Origin: a virus
Virus record (IMG/VR): IMGVR_UViG_3300012944_000002
Location: 64,001-86,311 of that record
Reading direction: 5' to 3' (one strand)
Length of the DNA stretch: 22,311 bases
Below, one piece after another: positions 3,570-21,409 of this stretch. Below the pieces are notes generated by a model. It did no database searches. It saw nothing but the letters and a program-made list of their open reading frames with translations, and had not been told where the DNA came from. Position numbers and translations under genes: made by a program. Positions within the stretch are counted from its first letter, which is position 1; every line of letters begins with the position of its first letter.

Positions 3570-4730
3570 TCAGTTGGCCTCATCCTTCGGCGGCCGGGCC
3601 AGCTTGAGCCACGGATTGTTCGCCCGGGACTGCGCCCGGTCCAGGTACTCACGCTTCACCGTCGCCGAGCCCGCGTTCCATCGCCCCTGCGCGGTCGGGT
3701 CGCCTCCCGCATCGGCGATGGCCTGAGCACCACCTCGGCGCAACCCGTGCGCGGTCACCTTCTTCCAGTTGTCCAGGCCGGCGGCCCGCGCCCGGCCGCG
3801 TACCCACTCGTTGACGGCGTCGCCGGTGACGTGCTCGCCGCGTTCGGTGGCCCGCGCCCGCGACTGCAAGGTGCCGCCCTTGGTGAGGGCGCGGAACAGG
3901 GCGCCGTCGTGGACACCGAGGTGGTGCAGCACGTCGAGCCACGCCCGGGTCGCGCGCACCGGGTCGATGGCCGGGTCGTCCCAGGAGGGGATGAACGTCT
4001 CTGCGCCCTTGGCCTCTTGGTCGGTCTTGGACGCGGAGATGTGGAGCGCGACGCCGTCGGCCTCGATGGTGACGTTGCCGATGGTGAGGTCGGCCAGCTC
4101 GATGCGCCGGTTGAGGGCGCCGCGGCCGAGGAGGAGGGCGCACCGGTCGCGGATGCCGATGGGGTCGGTCGGGTCGCAGGTGGCGACCATGGCCCGCAGC
4201 ATCTCTTCGGTGATGGCCGGTGCCTTCTTTACGCCGACGCGCTTGTTCCACTCCTTGCGGTACTCGTTGAGCATCCCGCGGGCCTCGGTGGTGCCGGGCT
4301 TCTTGTCGTCGGGCATCCACGTGCGGATCGCGGACATGGCGACGCTGATGGCGTTGGGGGAGCGGCCGGCGTCGATGAGGTGGTTGACGTACTCGACGTA
4401 GGTGGCCGTGGTGCACGGCCGGACTACGCGGCCGTGCTGCGCGCACCACGCCTCGAACGTGTCCCGCTGGTTCTTGTACGTCCGGGAGGTGTTCTTCGGC
4501 TTCGACTTGTTCTTCAGCCGCTCGGCGGTGGCGTCGGAGACGTACAGGTCCCGCTTGGTGTACGTCGGCCGGTCGGCCTCGGTGGGGATGTCCTGGCCGG
4601 GCAGGAGGATCGTGTGCTGATCCACCAGTGGGCGGGCGGCCATCGCTTCCCCAGATGGCGAAGCGATGGCGGGGAGGCGGTCATCAACCACCAACTCGGC
4701 GTCGATGACCTCGTCGGGTTCGTTGGTCAC
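3570..4730 (-). CDS. Tyrosine recombinase/integrase (first integrase)
   Basis: The GTG at 4730 overlaps the upstream stop (GTGA) and follows a GAGGGG ribosome site, giving 386 residues. Residues about 75-175 form the SAM-like core-binding domain (SRTYKNQRDTFEAWC). The catalytic domain keeps the full set: Arg near 208-209 (GALNRRIELADL), Lys about 235 (SASKTDQ), His 328 and Arg 331 (AHGLRRGG), Trp 351 (GRWN) and the nucleophile Tyr 362 (KREYLDRA). There is no N-terminal arm-binding domain. Such integrases cut and rejoin DNA between short identical sites. It is the last gene of a three-gene leftward operon. No attachment site is obvious beside it, unlike the second integrase at 8882. It may have arrived with another mobile element. 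Confidence 0.9.
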   Translation of the reverse strand: MTNEPDEVIDAELVVDDRLPAIASPSGEAMAARPLVDQHTILLPGQDIPTEADRPTYTKRDLYVSDATAERLKNKSKPKNTSRTYKNQRDTFEAWCAQHGRVVRPCTTATYVEYVNHLIDAGRSPNAISVAMSAIRTWMPDDKKPGTTEARGMLNEYRKEWNKRVGVKKAPAITEEMLRAMVATCDPTDPIGIRDRCALLLGRGALNRRIELADLTIGNVTIEADGVALHISASKTDQEAKGAETFIPSWDDPAIDPVRATRAWLDVLHHLGVHDGALFRALTKGGTLQSRARATERGEHVTGDAVNEWVRGRARAAGLDNWKKVTAHGLRRGGAQAIADAGGDPTAQGRWNAGSATVKREYLDRAQSRANNPWLKLARPPKDEAN

Positions 4731-4903
4731 GACTGGCCCCTCGATTCGGCCAGACGGAGCGCAACGTGCTTGTCGATCGCGCCCATCAGGAGGTCGATCT
4801 CCCACTGCACGGCAGGGCTCATCCGTGTGTGGCAACAGATGGTGGCGGCGACCGTCTCTTCCAACTCTTCGCGGGTCATGGGGACGTCGTGCTCGGCGCT
4901 CAC
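4727..4903 (-). CDS. Small hypothetical protein of the integrase operon
   Basis: The GTG start at 4903 overlaps the upstream stop and its own stop overlaps the integrase start, both as GTGA, so it is locked between two coupled genes. The 58-residue product is mostly helical and acidic at its N-terminus (TREELEETVAATICCHTRMS), with a Cys pair and a helix around WEIDLLMGAIDKHVALRL. There is no recognisable helix-turn-helix. Its size and position next to an integrase make a directionality factor possible, but that is only an inference from context. Confidence 0.6.
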   Translation of the reverse strand: MSAEHDVPMTREELEETVAATICCHTRMSPAVQWEIDLLMGAIDKHVALRLAESRGQS

Positions 4904-5328
4904 CGTGCACCACCGGTGGGCCACTCGTTCCCTTCGGGGATGATGCCCGAGACGATCGGCAGGCCAGCCTCCCTGCGCATGGCGTTCGTCCGTATCAGGG
5001 CGTCCATCTCCTCGGCGCGCTGGCGCCCCACCTCGCGCATCTGCTCCTTGATGACGCCGTTGGCCACGTCCATCGAGATGTCGGCCAGGCAGTCGATGCA
5101 CCGGAGGTACGTGACGTTGTCCGACCACTCGGCCTTCTTGTTGCTGAGCGGGAAGAAGCGCAGATGGTCCGCGTAGGCGATGACGGCACCGATGACGACT
5201 CCGCGGTTGCACTCGCAGTAGTCCAGTGGCTCAGCCTGCGGCATTCCAGCGCTCTCAGTTCGCTGTACTCCCGTCACCCGTCCGTTGTGCCGTCGCGCGG
5301 CCAGTTCATCGCCGATTCGAGCAGTCAT
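4900..5328 (-). CDS. Hypothetical protein with two Cys pairs, first gene of the integrase operon
   Basis: The ATG at 5328 follows GGGGAG, a good ribosome site. The 142-residue product has a C-x-C (DYCECNRG, about residues 38-40) and a C-x-x-C (YLRCIDC, about 76-79), a spacing that could bind zinc. A long charged helix follows (about residues 90-115, EQMREVGRQRAEEMDAL). The N-terminal 28 residues are Arg-rich and may not be essential; a second ATG at residue 29 is possible. It is co-transcribed and translationally coupled with the 58-residue gene and the first integrase, so it probably serves integration, excision or their control. Family not recognised. Confidence 0.65.
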   Translation of the reverse strand: MTARIGDELAARRHNGRVTGVQRTESAGMPQAEPLDYCECNRGVVIGAVIAYADHLRFFPLSNKKAEWSDNVTYLRCIDCLADISMDVANGVIKEQMREVGRQRAEEMDALIRTNAMRREAGLPIVSGIIPEGNEWPTGGAR

Positions 5329-7919: not shown

Positions 7920-8174
7920 TCAGCTTTCCGGATCGGTCGAGAGGAGGGTTCCAATGGGCACGCCCAGTGCGTTAGCGACCAGGATGATCGCCGAGAAGCG
8001 GGTCTCTCCGCCGGCCTCGATGCGCTGCCAGCTCGACAGGGACAGCGTCCGCTCGGTGCGTTCGGCCACCTGTTCCTGGGTCAGCCCCTTATGTAGGCGC
8101 CACAGTTGGATGCGGTGTCCGTGGATACGGCGGCGGTCATGAACCCAGTCGGGTAGTGGCGGCTGTACTGGCAC
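7920..8174 (-). CDS. Small XRE-family helix-turn-helix protein
   Basis: The core is a clear XRE/HTH_3 domain: RIHGHRIQLWRLHKGLTQEQ, AERTERTLSLSSWQRIEAG, then ETRFSAIILVANALGVPIGT. It starts at a GTG (8174, 84 residues); a TTG at 8216 would give 98 residues and neither start has a Shine-Dalgarno, so the N-terminus is uncertain. XRE proteins bind short operators as dimers and are typical phage repressors. This one is separate from the main repressor at 10580 and lies left of attP, so it may be a second immunity determinant or a control of the accessory block. A LexA-like box lies about 200 bases upstream. Confidence 0.75.
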   Translation of the reverse strand: MPVQPPLPDWVHDRRRIHGHRIQLWRLHKGLTQEQVAERTERTLSLSSWQRIEAGGETRFSAIILVANALGVPIGTLLSTDPES

Positions 8175-8369
8175 TCGACAAACGCTGTGGTGGCGTTGAT
8201 CATTAAGCCACAGCAACTTTGAAGTGTTTTGCGATCTTGACCGAAGGGCGCCCCGTCCCCCAGCTCCTCGCCCAGGCCCCGCGAGATGAGCAGGCGCCTA
8301 CAACCGCTCCACCGCAGATCGAGCTCCGCGGCATCGAGACGCCGCGAGGCCGGGACGCGTGTGCCAATA

Positions 8370-8385
8370 TCGAACGTGTGTTCAC
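8370..8385. promoter_or_regulatory. LexA/SOS-box-like site
   Basis: TCGAACGTGTGTTCAC matches the actinobacterial SOS pattern (CGAAC-N4-GTTCG) in its full GAAC-N4-GTTC core; only the outer right bases differ. The nearest leftward gene is the small XRE gene about 200 bases away. No rightward gene of useful size follows before the attachment core. Confidence 0.45.
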
Positions 8386-8502
8386 TCGATCGGGTGAAAG
8401 ATTCATGACAGGCGCATCCGGCGGATAGGTAACTGACGTCCCTCAAATTCGTGCCGGGTGTCCTGGGAAGCAGTGCCCCCCCTCGGGGTACTCGGCACTG
8501 AG

Positions 8503-8533
8503 CGCGCCCCGCCCGCCTGTAGGGCGGGGCGCG
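8503..8533. terminator. Strong GC hairpin
   Basis: CGCGCCCCGCCC (8503-8514) pairs perfectly with GGGCGGGGCGCG (8522-8533) around a 7-base loop. It probably insulates the attachment region from neighbouring transcription. Confidence 0.6.
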
Positions 8534-8542
8534 TGCTACGCC

Positions 8543-8598
8543 TGGGAGATGCTGGAGGCCCCGCGGGGGATCTGGGAGATTTCTGGGCGATGATCTTT
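8543..8598 (+). repeat. Left arm-type integrase-site repeats
   Basis: TGGGAGAT occurs at 8543-8550 and 8573-8580. The second copy is followed 11 bp on by TGGGCGAT (8584-8591) and by CGATGATCTTT (8588-8598). The same elements recur right of the core at 8892-8921. Paired direct repeats one helical turn apart on both sides of a core are what arm-binding tyrosine integrases use in attP. Confidence 0.55.
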
Positions 8599-8717
8599 CC
8601 TGGCGAATGCCGTTGGACCCGCTTCGAGGCGTTCGAACACCAACCGAACGCCCACGTTCTGCGCTGATCGCGAATGACCAATGGCCGTGACCTGCCATCA
8701 GGTAACCGTCATCCGCG

Positions 8718-8798
8718 ATCTACACGATCTTCGAGGGCACCAGCGAGATCCAGCGGCTGGTCATCGCCCGTACCCTGTCCGGGCTGCCGATCCGCTGA
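8718..8798 (+). other. attP core carrying the 3' end of an acyl-CoA dehydrogenase gene
   Basis: The 27 codons 8718-8798 translate to the conserved C-terminus of an acyl-CoA dehydrogenase (IYTIFEGTSEIQRLVIARTL, then SGLPIR and TGA). The frame is closed by TAA at 8703-8705 and the upstream DNA is not dehydrogenase sequence, so no gene exists here. Elements that integrate into the 3' end of a host gene often carry such a copy to restore it. With integrase 84 bases away and arm-like repeats on both sides, this is best read as an attP whose core lies in this segment, rather than as a decayed gene. The exact crossover cannot be placed from one sequence. Confidence 0.75.
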
Positions 8799-8842
8799 GG
8801 CTAGTTAGCAGCAGGACGCGCATAGAGTGCTGGCAGAAGCGT

Positions 8843-8870
8843 GGCCCCACCGCCTGAGTGCGGTGGGGCC
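8843..8870. terminator. Bidirectional hairpin terminator
   Basis: GGCCCCACCGC (8843-8853) pairs with GCGGTGGGGCC (8860-8870), followed by GTTTCGGT. It lies between the dehydrogenase 3' copy and the end of the integrase, so it can end both the restored host gene after integration and the integrase transcript. Confidence 0.75.
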
Positions 8871-8881
8871 GTTTCGGTGCG

Positions 8882-10180
8882 TCAAGATCCCCGATGATCT
8901 TTTGGGAGATTTCTTGGAGATCGTTTACGCGGAGGTCTCGGCGGGGGGAACTGGCCGTACTCGCGGACCTCGGGCCGGACCCTCAACGAGTCCTCCCACA
9001 GCTCCTGGAGATGGGCTGAGATATCCAGCTCCATCTGCAGCGTCACGTGCGAGTACGTTCCTTCGACGCCCGGGAGCTCGTGCCCCATGCGCGCTTCTAC
9101 GGCAACCCTAGGGTGCCGGCCGCCATCGAGCCAGACCTTGTGGCTGTGTCGCAGACCGTGAGGAACCATCCCCTCGATGCCGAGCACCGGCCGGAAGCCG
9201 GTCCGGGCCTTCGCACCGCGGCGCACCGGAAGCGGAGCCCGGCCGTCGATGAACACCCCCCACGTGTCCGCGTACCAGTCGCCACTGCGCAGCAGCCGGC
9301 CGCCCTTCGGGGCGGTGAACACCCACTCCGATCCGGGCCGGAAGCCCACCAGGTCCCGCAGCAGCTGCGCCAGGAACGGCGGGACGATCAGCCCCCGACC
9401 CGAGTCGTACTTGGGCTCGATCTCGGTGAACTCGCCGTTGACGTACTGGCTCTGCTGTATCGCGTGAATGCGGGCGCCCTGTCCCTTGTCCTTGAGGGCG
9501 AGCTGATCGCGGTGCAAGCCGGCCACCTCGCCGATCCGCAGGCCCGTGTAGGCGCTGGTGAGGACGAGGGCGTACTCGTTCAGCCCGTGCATCTCCAGGG
9601 CGTTCCTGGCAGCCAGCAGCGCCTGCCGCGGCGTGGCGATGACCTTGTCTTCCTGCTTCGGCTTGGGCCGGTAACGGCCTCGCCGGCCGGACTTTCGCGA
9701 CGCCACCGGGTTGTCGCCCCGGATCTTCTCAGCGACCGCGTCATCGAGCATGGTGCGGAACGTCGAGATGATGGCGTCGACATAGTTCTTGCTGACTTCC
9801 CCACTGATCCGTTTGCGCCAGATGGCGATCGCGGTGGGAGACAGGTCGCGGATGGCGACCGGGCCCCACTGCGGCAGGATCTGGTTCTTGATCCGCAGCC
9901 GGTATTCCTTCTCGGACAGCGGGCCAACGTCGATCATGTCAAGCCAGAGCTTCGACCACTCCGCCACGGTGATCTTCCCGTCGCGGGGGTTGAAGAAGAC
10001 CTTGCGGGCGACGTCCGTCTCCATCGCATGGCCGTAGCTCTCGGCCAACTTCTCCGTCCTGAAGCGGTTGCCGAAGTCGTCCCTGCTCGCAGAGCCGTAC
10101 CTGCCGTTGGGGAGCTTGTACTTGACGCGCCAGTACCAAGCCTTGTCCTTCTTGGAGTAGCGCTTCTCGGCGTGCGCCAT
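8882..10180 (-). CDS. int: Phage tyrosine integrase (second integrase)
   Basis: The ATG at 10180 follows TGGAGGACACCC, a strong ribosome site, giving 432 residues. The N-terminus (residues about 4-40, RYSKKDKAWYWRVKYKLPNG) is the small beta-sheet arm-binding domain. Residues about 70-155 are the SAM-like core-binding domain. The catalytic domain has Arg215 (TGLRIGEV), His341 and Arg344 (PHGLRHSH), His367 (MGHELPG) and the nucleophile Tyr376 (EGTYSHVT). The C-terminal tail is Pro/Arg-rich. It reads toward the attachment core 84 bases beyond its stop, the usual phage arrangement. It would recombine attP with the 3' end of a host acyl-CoA dehydrogenase gene. A strong hairpin upstream suggests it has its own control. 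Confidence 0.95.
   Translation of the reverse strand: MAHAEKRYSKKDKAWYWRVKYKLPNGRYGSASRDDFGNRFRTEKLAESYGHAMETDVARKVFFNPRDGKITVAEWSKLWLDMIDVGPLSEKEYRLRIKNQILPQWGPVAIRDLSPTAIAIWRKRISGEVSKNYVDAIISTFRTMLDDAVAEKIRGDNPVASRKSGRRGRYRPKPKQEDKVIATPRQALLAARNALEMHGLNEYALVLTSAYTGLRIGEVAGLHRDQLALKDKGQGARIHAIQQSQYVNGEFTEIEPKYDSGRGLIVPPFLAQLLRDLVGFRPGSEWVFTAPKGGRLLRSGDWYADTWGVFIDGRAPLPVRRGAKARTGFRPVLGIEGMVPHGLRHSHKVWLDGGRHPRVAVEARMGHELPGVEGTYSHVTLQMELDISAHLQELWEDSLRVRPEVREYGQFPPPRPPRKRSPRNLPKDHRGS
8892..8921 (+). repeat. Right arm-type integrase-site repeats
   Basis: CGATGATCTTT (8892-8902), TGGGAGAT (8903-8910) and TTGGAGAT (8914-8921) repeat the elements left of the core at 8571-8598 in the same orientation. 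They overlap the last codons of the integrase gene. The 11-bp spacing between the two GGAGAT units equals that on the left side. Confidence 0.55.
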
Positions 10181-20443: not shown

Positions 20444-21409
20444 ATGGCCAACGAAGAGCCGATCCAGACCGACGAACTGATCCTCACGGAGTCCCGCACT
20501 CGACGGGATCAGACCATCGCCCACATCGAAGTCCTCGACAAGGTCGGGGCGCTCGCGCTCCTGTCGGACGGCATGCACGTCACCACCGATGGAATCGCGG
20601 CCTTCTACAAGGTCCCCGTACCGACCATCGAGAGCGTCGTTGAAATCCACCGCGCCGAGTTGGAGTCGAACGGACGGCGCGTCCTCAGAGGTGCTGAGCT
20701 GCGTGATTTTGCGGCACCTTTTGGCGGTACCGCAAATCTGGGGATCAGCACCAAGACGCGCTCGCTTGCGGTCTTCTCGCGCCGCGCGATCCTCAACGTT
20801 GGCCAGCTCCTGACCGGCTCCGAGGTCGCGAAGGCTGTCCGCACGCACCTGCTCGACGCCGAAGCCACGAGCTCCGCACGGTTCACGCTCCCGACGTCCT
20901 TCGCAGACGCCCTGGAACTGGCGGCGAAGCAGGCCCGCGAGCTGGAAGACGCCCGGTCGGAGAACGAGGAACTGGCAGAGACCAACGCCCGTCTGTCCCC
21001 GAAGGCCCGGGTCGCCGACCAGTACGCGGCGAACCCCGGCATCACGCCGACCGTGTTCCACAAGACGCACTTCCCGGAGATCAGCGAGCGCGGCTTCTTC
21101 GAGCACCTGTACCGCAAGGACTACCTGATCGATCAGCGCAACACCCGCTGGGACGTGCGCAAGGAGGAGTGGAAGGACGGACCGGAGCACCTGCACCCCA
21201 CCGCAAAGGGGAAGCGCTACTTCTACCTCGCACCCAAGCTCGACCGGAACGGCGTCCGCCGCCAGCAGACGTTGGTGATCCCTGGTGATGCTGAGCACGA
21301 CCTCGTGGCCGCCCTGGAACGCGACCGGCTGCCGTCGCGGAACCGTCCCGCGCTCCCCGATCTCCGGGACGACCGCTTCTGGGGCGCCGGCGAAGCGGGT
21401 GCGGCATGA
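20444..21409 (+). CDS. Phage antirepressor with KilA-C domain
   Basis: The ATG at 20444 follows GAGGAGGAC. The 321-residue product has an N-terminal domain (residues about 20-140, IAHIEVLDKVGALALLSDGM and VPVPTIESVVEIHRAE) and a coiled coil (about 156-184). The C-terminal KilA-C/Ant-type domain lies at about 185-275 (LSPKARVADQYAANPG, RGFFEHLYRKDYLIDQRNTR, HPTAKGKRYFYLAP). KilA-C proteins are antirepressors or DNA-binding early regulators of temperate phages. The N-terminal domain is widespread in Streptomyces elements but I cannot name it. It heads a coupled operon and lies 9 kb from the repressor, so it could act in trans on it. Confidence 0.8.
   Translation: MANEEPIQTDELILTESRTRRDQTIAHIEVLDKVGALALLSDGMHVTTDGIAAFYKVPVPTIESVVEIHRAELESNGRRVLRGAELRDFAAPFGGTANLGISTKTRSLAVFSRRAILNVGQLLTGSEVAKAVRTHLLDAEATSSARFTLPTSFADALELAAKQARELEDARSENEELAETNARLSPKARVADQYAANPGITPTVFHKTHFPEISERGFFEHLYRKDYLIDQRNTRWDVRKEEWKDGPEHLHPTAKGKRYFYLAPKLDRNGVRRQQTLVIPGDAEHDLVAALERDRLPSRNRPALPDLRDDRFWGAGEAGAA

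Follow-up and report, generated by a model that had tools for sequence, protein, structure and literature searches.

Phage 21, like the E. coli element e14, integrates at the 3' end of icd, and the gene is restored. As PMC6379469 relates, citing Hill et al. 1989, the attP of e14 carries the 3' end of this metabolic enzyme gene (163 bp in e14); after integration the gene is whole again and a displaced copy remains. The phage attachment site that we analyse here appears to use the same kind of mechanism, but it differs from e14 and phage 21 in the gene, which is that of an acyl-CoA dehydrogenase (ACAD), in the host phylum and in the integrase family. Int-Y prophages of Mycobacterium abscessus, an actinobacterium, also integrate at protein genes, their attB being non-tRNA sites, and some of them replace the C-terminal residues with prophage-derived ones (PMC8092301). 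Those prophages target other genes, their cores are typically 3-25 bp long and their attP often lies in the repressor gene, whereas the core described here comprises 84 bp and lies outside the repressor. A probable ACAD gene, MAB_1851 (fadE) of M. abscessus, is occupied by prophiT49-3 of cluster MabJ, which uses a serine integrase (PMC9934374). However, the insertion point of that phage is near position 280 of 1140, the gene is likely inactivated, and both site and mechanism are different. Finally, the three-part integrase model and the arm sites on both sides of the core resemble those of lambda Int and its attP, although the integrases share only 15-16% identity, the arms of our site lie at the integrase stop codon and the attB of lambda does not correspond to the end of a gene that is restored. 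In the open-access literature searched we found no description of a tyrosine-integrase insertion at the 3' end of an ACAD gene or of sodN. The ACAD target and a family of integrases with constant arms and changing cores thus appear to be undescribed, while the gene-restoring mechanism itself is already known from e14 and icd.

Comparison of the locus with its relatives in bacterial genomes and viral contigs leaves us with little doubt that it is the attP of a temperate phage that restores the host ACAD by a phage-borne 3' end, a reading that is built on sequence comparison throughout.

Results

The window, by which we mean the whole stretch of 22,311 bases analysed, comprises bases 64001-86311 of a viral record of 86,311 bases, and the attP spans window positions 8542-8925. 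Both ends of the record (bases 1-123 and 86189-86311) share an exact 123-bp terminal repeat, and an open gene frame reads across the join once the circle is closed. The record therefore covers the complete genome, circular or terminally redundant; as assembled into a circle it measures 86,188 bp. The virus is known from sequence alone and would be an uncultured, siphophage-like, tailed temperate phage of 86.2 kb with Streptomyces-like bacteria as hosts. Large terminase, portal, major head protein, tape measure and endolysin are recognised by PHROGs to the left of the site, with replication and nuclease genes farther out than the structural genes, and the attP itself is flanked by a helix-turn-helix (HTH) repressor on one side and the integrase on the other (PHROGs). 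A source assembly with the site in a chromosome and host genes on one side would have spoken against the original prediction; the source record instead closes into an 86,188-bp circle in which phage genes adjoin the site left and right, and no host gene was seen beside it. Unintegrated DNA is the best reading of the record. As the window is without a tRNA gene, a tRNA attB was ruled out.

Megablast of the window against the phage collection gave zero matches, and the head protein found only matches of 27% there, that is, no close isolated phage. Against plasmids, the Megablast hits of the window were confined to the ACAD end, a single hypothetical protein and a second recombinase. This second recombinase of the window is an Xer-like tyrosine recombinase (3570-4730, minus strand), accompanied by small ORFs at 4727-4924 and 4900-5244. 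On the plasmids where it has relatives, the relative adjoins another integrase gene. It possibly serves multimer resolution or DNA inversion.

The core region (8715-8798, plus strand) translates to AIYTIFEGTSEIQRLVIARTLSGLPIR and a stop, and matches the last 27 codons of a host ACAD in 35 genomes. Its frame is open for only 30 codons from stop to stop and the 5' part of the gene is absent. The dehydrogenase C-terminus without 5' part that had been read from the window therefore stands, but its length had been given as 26 codons plus stop, counted from a start at 8718, and is corrected here to 27. Aligned with the 3' ends of intact ACAD genes, the segment reaches 99% identity in one genome (L047) and 83-98% in 34 others, so the shared identity on which the original prediction depended is present. 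Among 11 phage-side copies of the ACAD end, 18 of the 25 variable columns fall on codon position 3 (p = 1e-4), and the pairwise codon differences are 385 synonymous versus 86 nonsynonymous. Such a third-position bias would follow from a need for the sequence to function as protein in the integrated state.

The position of strand exchange can be narrowed with the prophage of Streptomyces sp. PH10-H1. In its attL, ACAD sequence gives way to phage DNA immediately 5' of the equivalent of 8718; a difference between its two junctions, attL and attR, is seen at 8756. Barring later mutation at 8756, strand exchange would be confined to 8718-8755 (38 bp, plus strand), which encodes IYTIFEGTSEIQ. The EGTSE of the core aligns to the IYEGTSE of solved ACADs, and its Glu, encoded by the GAG at 8733-8735, is presumably the catalytic base (compare Glu376 of medium-chain ACAD). 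The integrase thus targets a stretch that ranks among the best conserved of the enzyme, a possible reason for the wide availability of the site. Inside the same interval we noticed, by eye only, an imperfect dyad, ATCTTCG...GCGAGAT, the halves of which are candidate inverted core sites around an overlap of 6-8 bp.

The core lies between two arms built of the same elements. In the left arm (P side, 8542-8598) a third, single TGGGAGAT at 8543 precedes the pair TGGGAGATTTCTGGGCGAT (8573-8591) and the AAAGATCATCG element (8588-8598). The right arm (P' side, 8892-8921) lies within the last codons of the integrase gene (KRSPRNLPKDHRGS and stop) and joins CGATGATCTTT to the pair TGGGAGATTTCTTGGAGAT (8903-8921). 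CGATGATCTTT is exact at 8588-8598 and at 8892-8902; both pairs have an 11-bp spacing and one mismatch in the second unit. Allowing at most two mismatches, TCTCCCA-N4-TCTCCCA occurs exactly twice in the 22.3-kb window, in the two arms, where 0.18 occurrences are expected, and none of 100 shuffles reached two pairs. The whole record contains one more site equal in mismatches to the arm pairs, at base 5141.

Two perfect hairpins accompany the arms. The outer one (8503-8533; 12-bp stem, 8503-8514/8522-8533) lies outside the left arm and is a probable terminator; the inner one (8843-8870; 11-bp stem, 8843-8853/8860-8870) lies between the convergent ACAD end and integrase gene and probably terminates both. 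They occupy the same places in relatives, the outer one in other attP forms. Neither passes a U-tract terminator scan as a canonical terminator. Thus the original prediction was right about matching elements on both sides with paired units 11 bp apart (8573-8591/8588-8598 and 8892-8921) and about an integrase 84 bases from the ACAD end, its stop codon at 8882 being 84 nt from the ACAD stop. The overlap of the right arm with the end of the integrase gene goes beyond that prediction. Its terminators on both sides are borne out as perfect hairpins but not by the U-tract scan, which makes termination a probable function.

Between core and inner hairpin lies an 18-bp block, TCTATGCGCGTCCTGCTG (8809-8826, minus strand), which is conserved in the phage-side DNA of all ACAD members aligned and absent from the host side at attL. 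By chance 0.02 occurrences would be expected with up to three mismatches. Our guess is that the block is a putative protein-binding site of attP for an accessory protein. Eight relatives (L010, L012, L016-L020 and L023) have TGTTNCTCCGGGTT-like repeats between core and left arm that are not evident in the window; these are possible candidates for excisionase or accessory sites.

The integrase (P0001, 432 aa; 8882-10180, minus strand) is a tyrosine integrase by Pfam (Phage_integrase, E 5e-6) and PHROGs (PHROG 1, E 9e-42). R215, K257, H341, R344, H367 and Y376 are invariant in 21 members and make up the full catalytic R-K-H-R-H/W-Y set. Its predicted model (mean pLDDT 77.6, pTM 0.54) has strands at residues 3-9, 14-22 and 28-31 and a helix at 43-53 at the N-terminus, and the best fold matches are full-length lambda Int with the N-domain; Pfam profiles name no arm domain in the protein. 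Judged by this model, the enzyme would be a lambda-type integrase, which fits separate binding of arms and core. By tblastn against isolated phages and plasmids no relative at or above 60% was found, and the best-covering matches lie near 25%.

On the other side of the attP, a gene at 7920-8216 (minus strand; start codon uncertain) encodes a probable lysogeny repressor (HTH_31/HTH_3; Pfam and PHROGs). Near it, at 8381-8398, lies the palindrome TTCACTCGATCGGGTGAA (TTCAC-N8-GTGAA), and similar palindromes are found at the same place in L010 and L023; it is a possible repressor operator. Since the repressor gene is about 300 bp away from the attP, we dropped the idea of an integration-dependent immunity, in which attP would lie inside the repressor gene. 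The early region of the window further encodes an anti-repressor-like protein (20444-21409; PHROG Ant, KilAC domain).

Intact host genes and occupied sites were found in bacterial genomes. When 8713-8798 was compared with 35 genomes of the GTDB genus of PH10-H1, every genome gave one match (83-99%) except PH10-H1, which gave two. Intact ACAD genes are present at the empty sites, the best of which (99%) is the 3' end of the intact ACAD gene in L047. A genome scan with a single integrase as query found nothing, while an alignment query found two lysogens; relatives of the integrase at about 66-72% identity come from two Streptomyces genomes and ten viral contigs. Prophages of this integrase family sit at the exact site in Streptomyces sp. 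PH10-H1 and A3M-1-3. At attR of both (L013 and L014) the order is integrase, arm, hairpin and ACAD end, which runs on into a full-length ACAD with a restored frame of 414 codons stop-to-stop. At attL (L024 in PH10-H1, L023 in A3M-1-3) a displaced ACAD 3' end, open for 30 and 35 codons respectively, is followed by the left-arm motif. A single contig of A3M-1-3 contains both junctions, separated by about 58.6 kb, and they enclose terminase, portal, head, tape-measure and endolysin genes, a complete phage gene set. Compared with the portal and head protein of the window phage, the A3M-1-3 genes show no recognisable relation at E 1e-5; therefore the att module travels between different phages. The attR contig of PH10-H1 carries relatives of the window phage's portal (47%) and major head protein (55%), 57.5 kb from int; once the window phage is closed into a circle, the equivalent distance computes to 53.5 kb. 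Since attL and attR of PH10-H1 are on different contigs, the full extent of this prophage is assumed. The nearest integrated relatives share 72% integrase identity with the window phage, and none is the same phage.

A pair of metagenomic contigs captures both states of one phage. L009 matches L010 with 99.5% identity along 9,293 bp, and the two diverge at the core, where L009 continues into the host ACAD and L010 into a second arm, that is, one phage integrated and free. The arms partition accordingly among the relatives. Of the attP forms, all eight show the arm pair left and right of the core, and the four attR, without exception, have it solely on the side of the integrase; the left-arm motif is found on the far side of all eight attP forms and in both attL, and is absent from the four attR. 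As the arm motif was first read from the window, its recurrence in relatives checks the position independently, although the pattern was refined by eye. The core was thus found inside an intact dehydrogenase gene that is restored in lysogens, and the prophage ends each carry one arm set, both as had been anticipated from the window.

The arm motif extends beyond the closest relatives. Of 22 family members tested, 20 have it at the 3' end of the integrase gene; among integrases at 45-60% identity it is kept by seven of nine, with L039 and L040 as the exceptions. The sites of distant members are varied: L039 lies at an ACAD paralogue, and four others precede a TetR-type gene, on its upstream side. 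Another three occupy the 3' end of a gene that is also present as an intact copy in two of their genomes, where it has the sequence of nickel superoxide dismutase, sodN. The names TetR, sodN and ACAD paralogue come from sequence reading and not from profile searches. In L040 it is the opposite side of the integrase that carries the ACAD end. The sodN end also turned up in three viral contigs for which the arm pattern had been the sole query. No more than three changes of target are required on the tree. Near a distant integrase member, intervals of about 35 kb bounded by duplicated sodN 3' ends were seen in L061 (G208) and L062 (G079), which points to use of the sodN gene as an attachment site.

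Discussion

We propose that the catalytic and core-binding domains of the integrase probably bind the core, while the N-terminal domain probably binds the TCTCCCA pairs on both arms. Strand exchange would then take place within 8718-8755 against the matching stretch of the chromosomal ACAD gene (attB). After integration of the window phage, the host 5' part would be continued by the phage's last 27 codons, stop and hairpin at attR, on the integrase side. As attR supplies the 3' end, the dehydrogenase would be intact in the lysogen.

The window phage could instead persist as a circular phage-plasmid, with the record being a stable extrachromosomal prophage and the attP rarely used or a relic. 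The record is circular, and the plasmid collection's closest match to the head protein (63%) is encoded by pAmyja1 (L065, NZ_CP008954.1), a 92.5-kb circular phage-plasmid of Amycolatopsis japonica that combines a terminase-portal-head-tail set with ParB-like genes. The Xer-like recombinase at 3570-4730 points in the same direction, with 74-78% DNA identity to recombinases of circular 92-173-kb Streptomyces plasmids. A replication-initiation-like protein was found in the window phage. However, the phage has an intact att module that shows coding constraint, relatives with this module are integrated, one of them with the same head genes, and ParA/ParB were not recognised among the proteins tested, a subset of the genes. 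We therefore regard a phage-plasmid life with a disused attP as unlikely.

Still less probable is that the site is the central junction of two tandem prophages and that the DNA is chromosomal. In a tandem dimer, too, an attP-like junction would be intact and the assembled ends would overlap, yet host DNA is not seen beside the site, and seven further viral contigs (L010, L012, L016-L020) are in attP form, which makes a tandem in all of them hard to accept. The original prediction had allowed for either unintegrated DNA or the centre of a tandem insertion; the former is the better supported, the latter very improbable. Phages do pick up host fragments, but the idea that the dehydrogenase end was left behind by chance after transduction of host DNA and plays no part in integration is refuted by the PH10-H1 and A3M-1-3 prophage junctions, which fall exactly in the ACAD end, and by the same 3' end being kept at the same place by the integrase, with frame and stop, in all members.

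With the site read as a gene-restoring attP, the family raises a wider question. One actinobacterial integrase lineage may keep the arm motif GATCTCCCA-N3-TCTCCCA in its own gene end and have moved its core among conserved host genes, namely ACAD, an ACAD paralogue, the sodN 3' end and a site upstream of a TetR-type gene; the module would also be exchanged between phages whose heads are unrelated. The moves may have gone through partly similar cores (ACAD ATCTTCGAGGGCACCAGCGAG, sodN ATCTTCTGGGAGACCAAGAAG). We consider the case for this scenario to be evenly balanced.

The attP/attB pair, conserved in every tested genome of one Streptomyces-like genus and leaving its target intact, is a candidate integration vector. 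The natural series of integrases with the same arm motif and four kinds of target offers a setting in which to study how integrases change targets. Finally, the finding assigns a large group of uncultured phages to its host.
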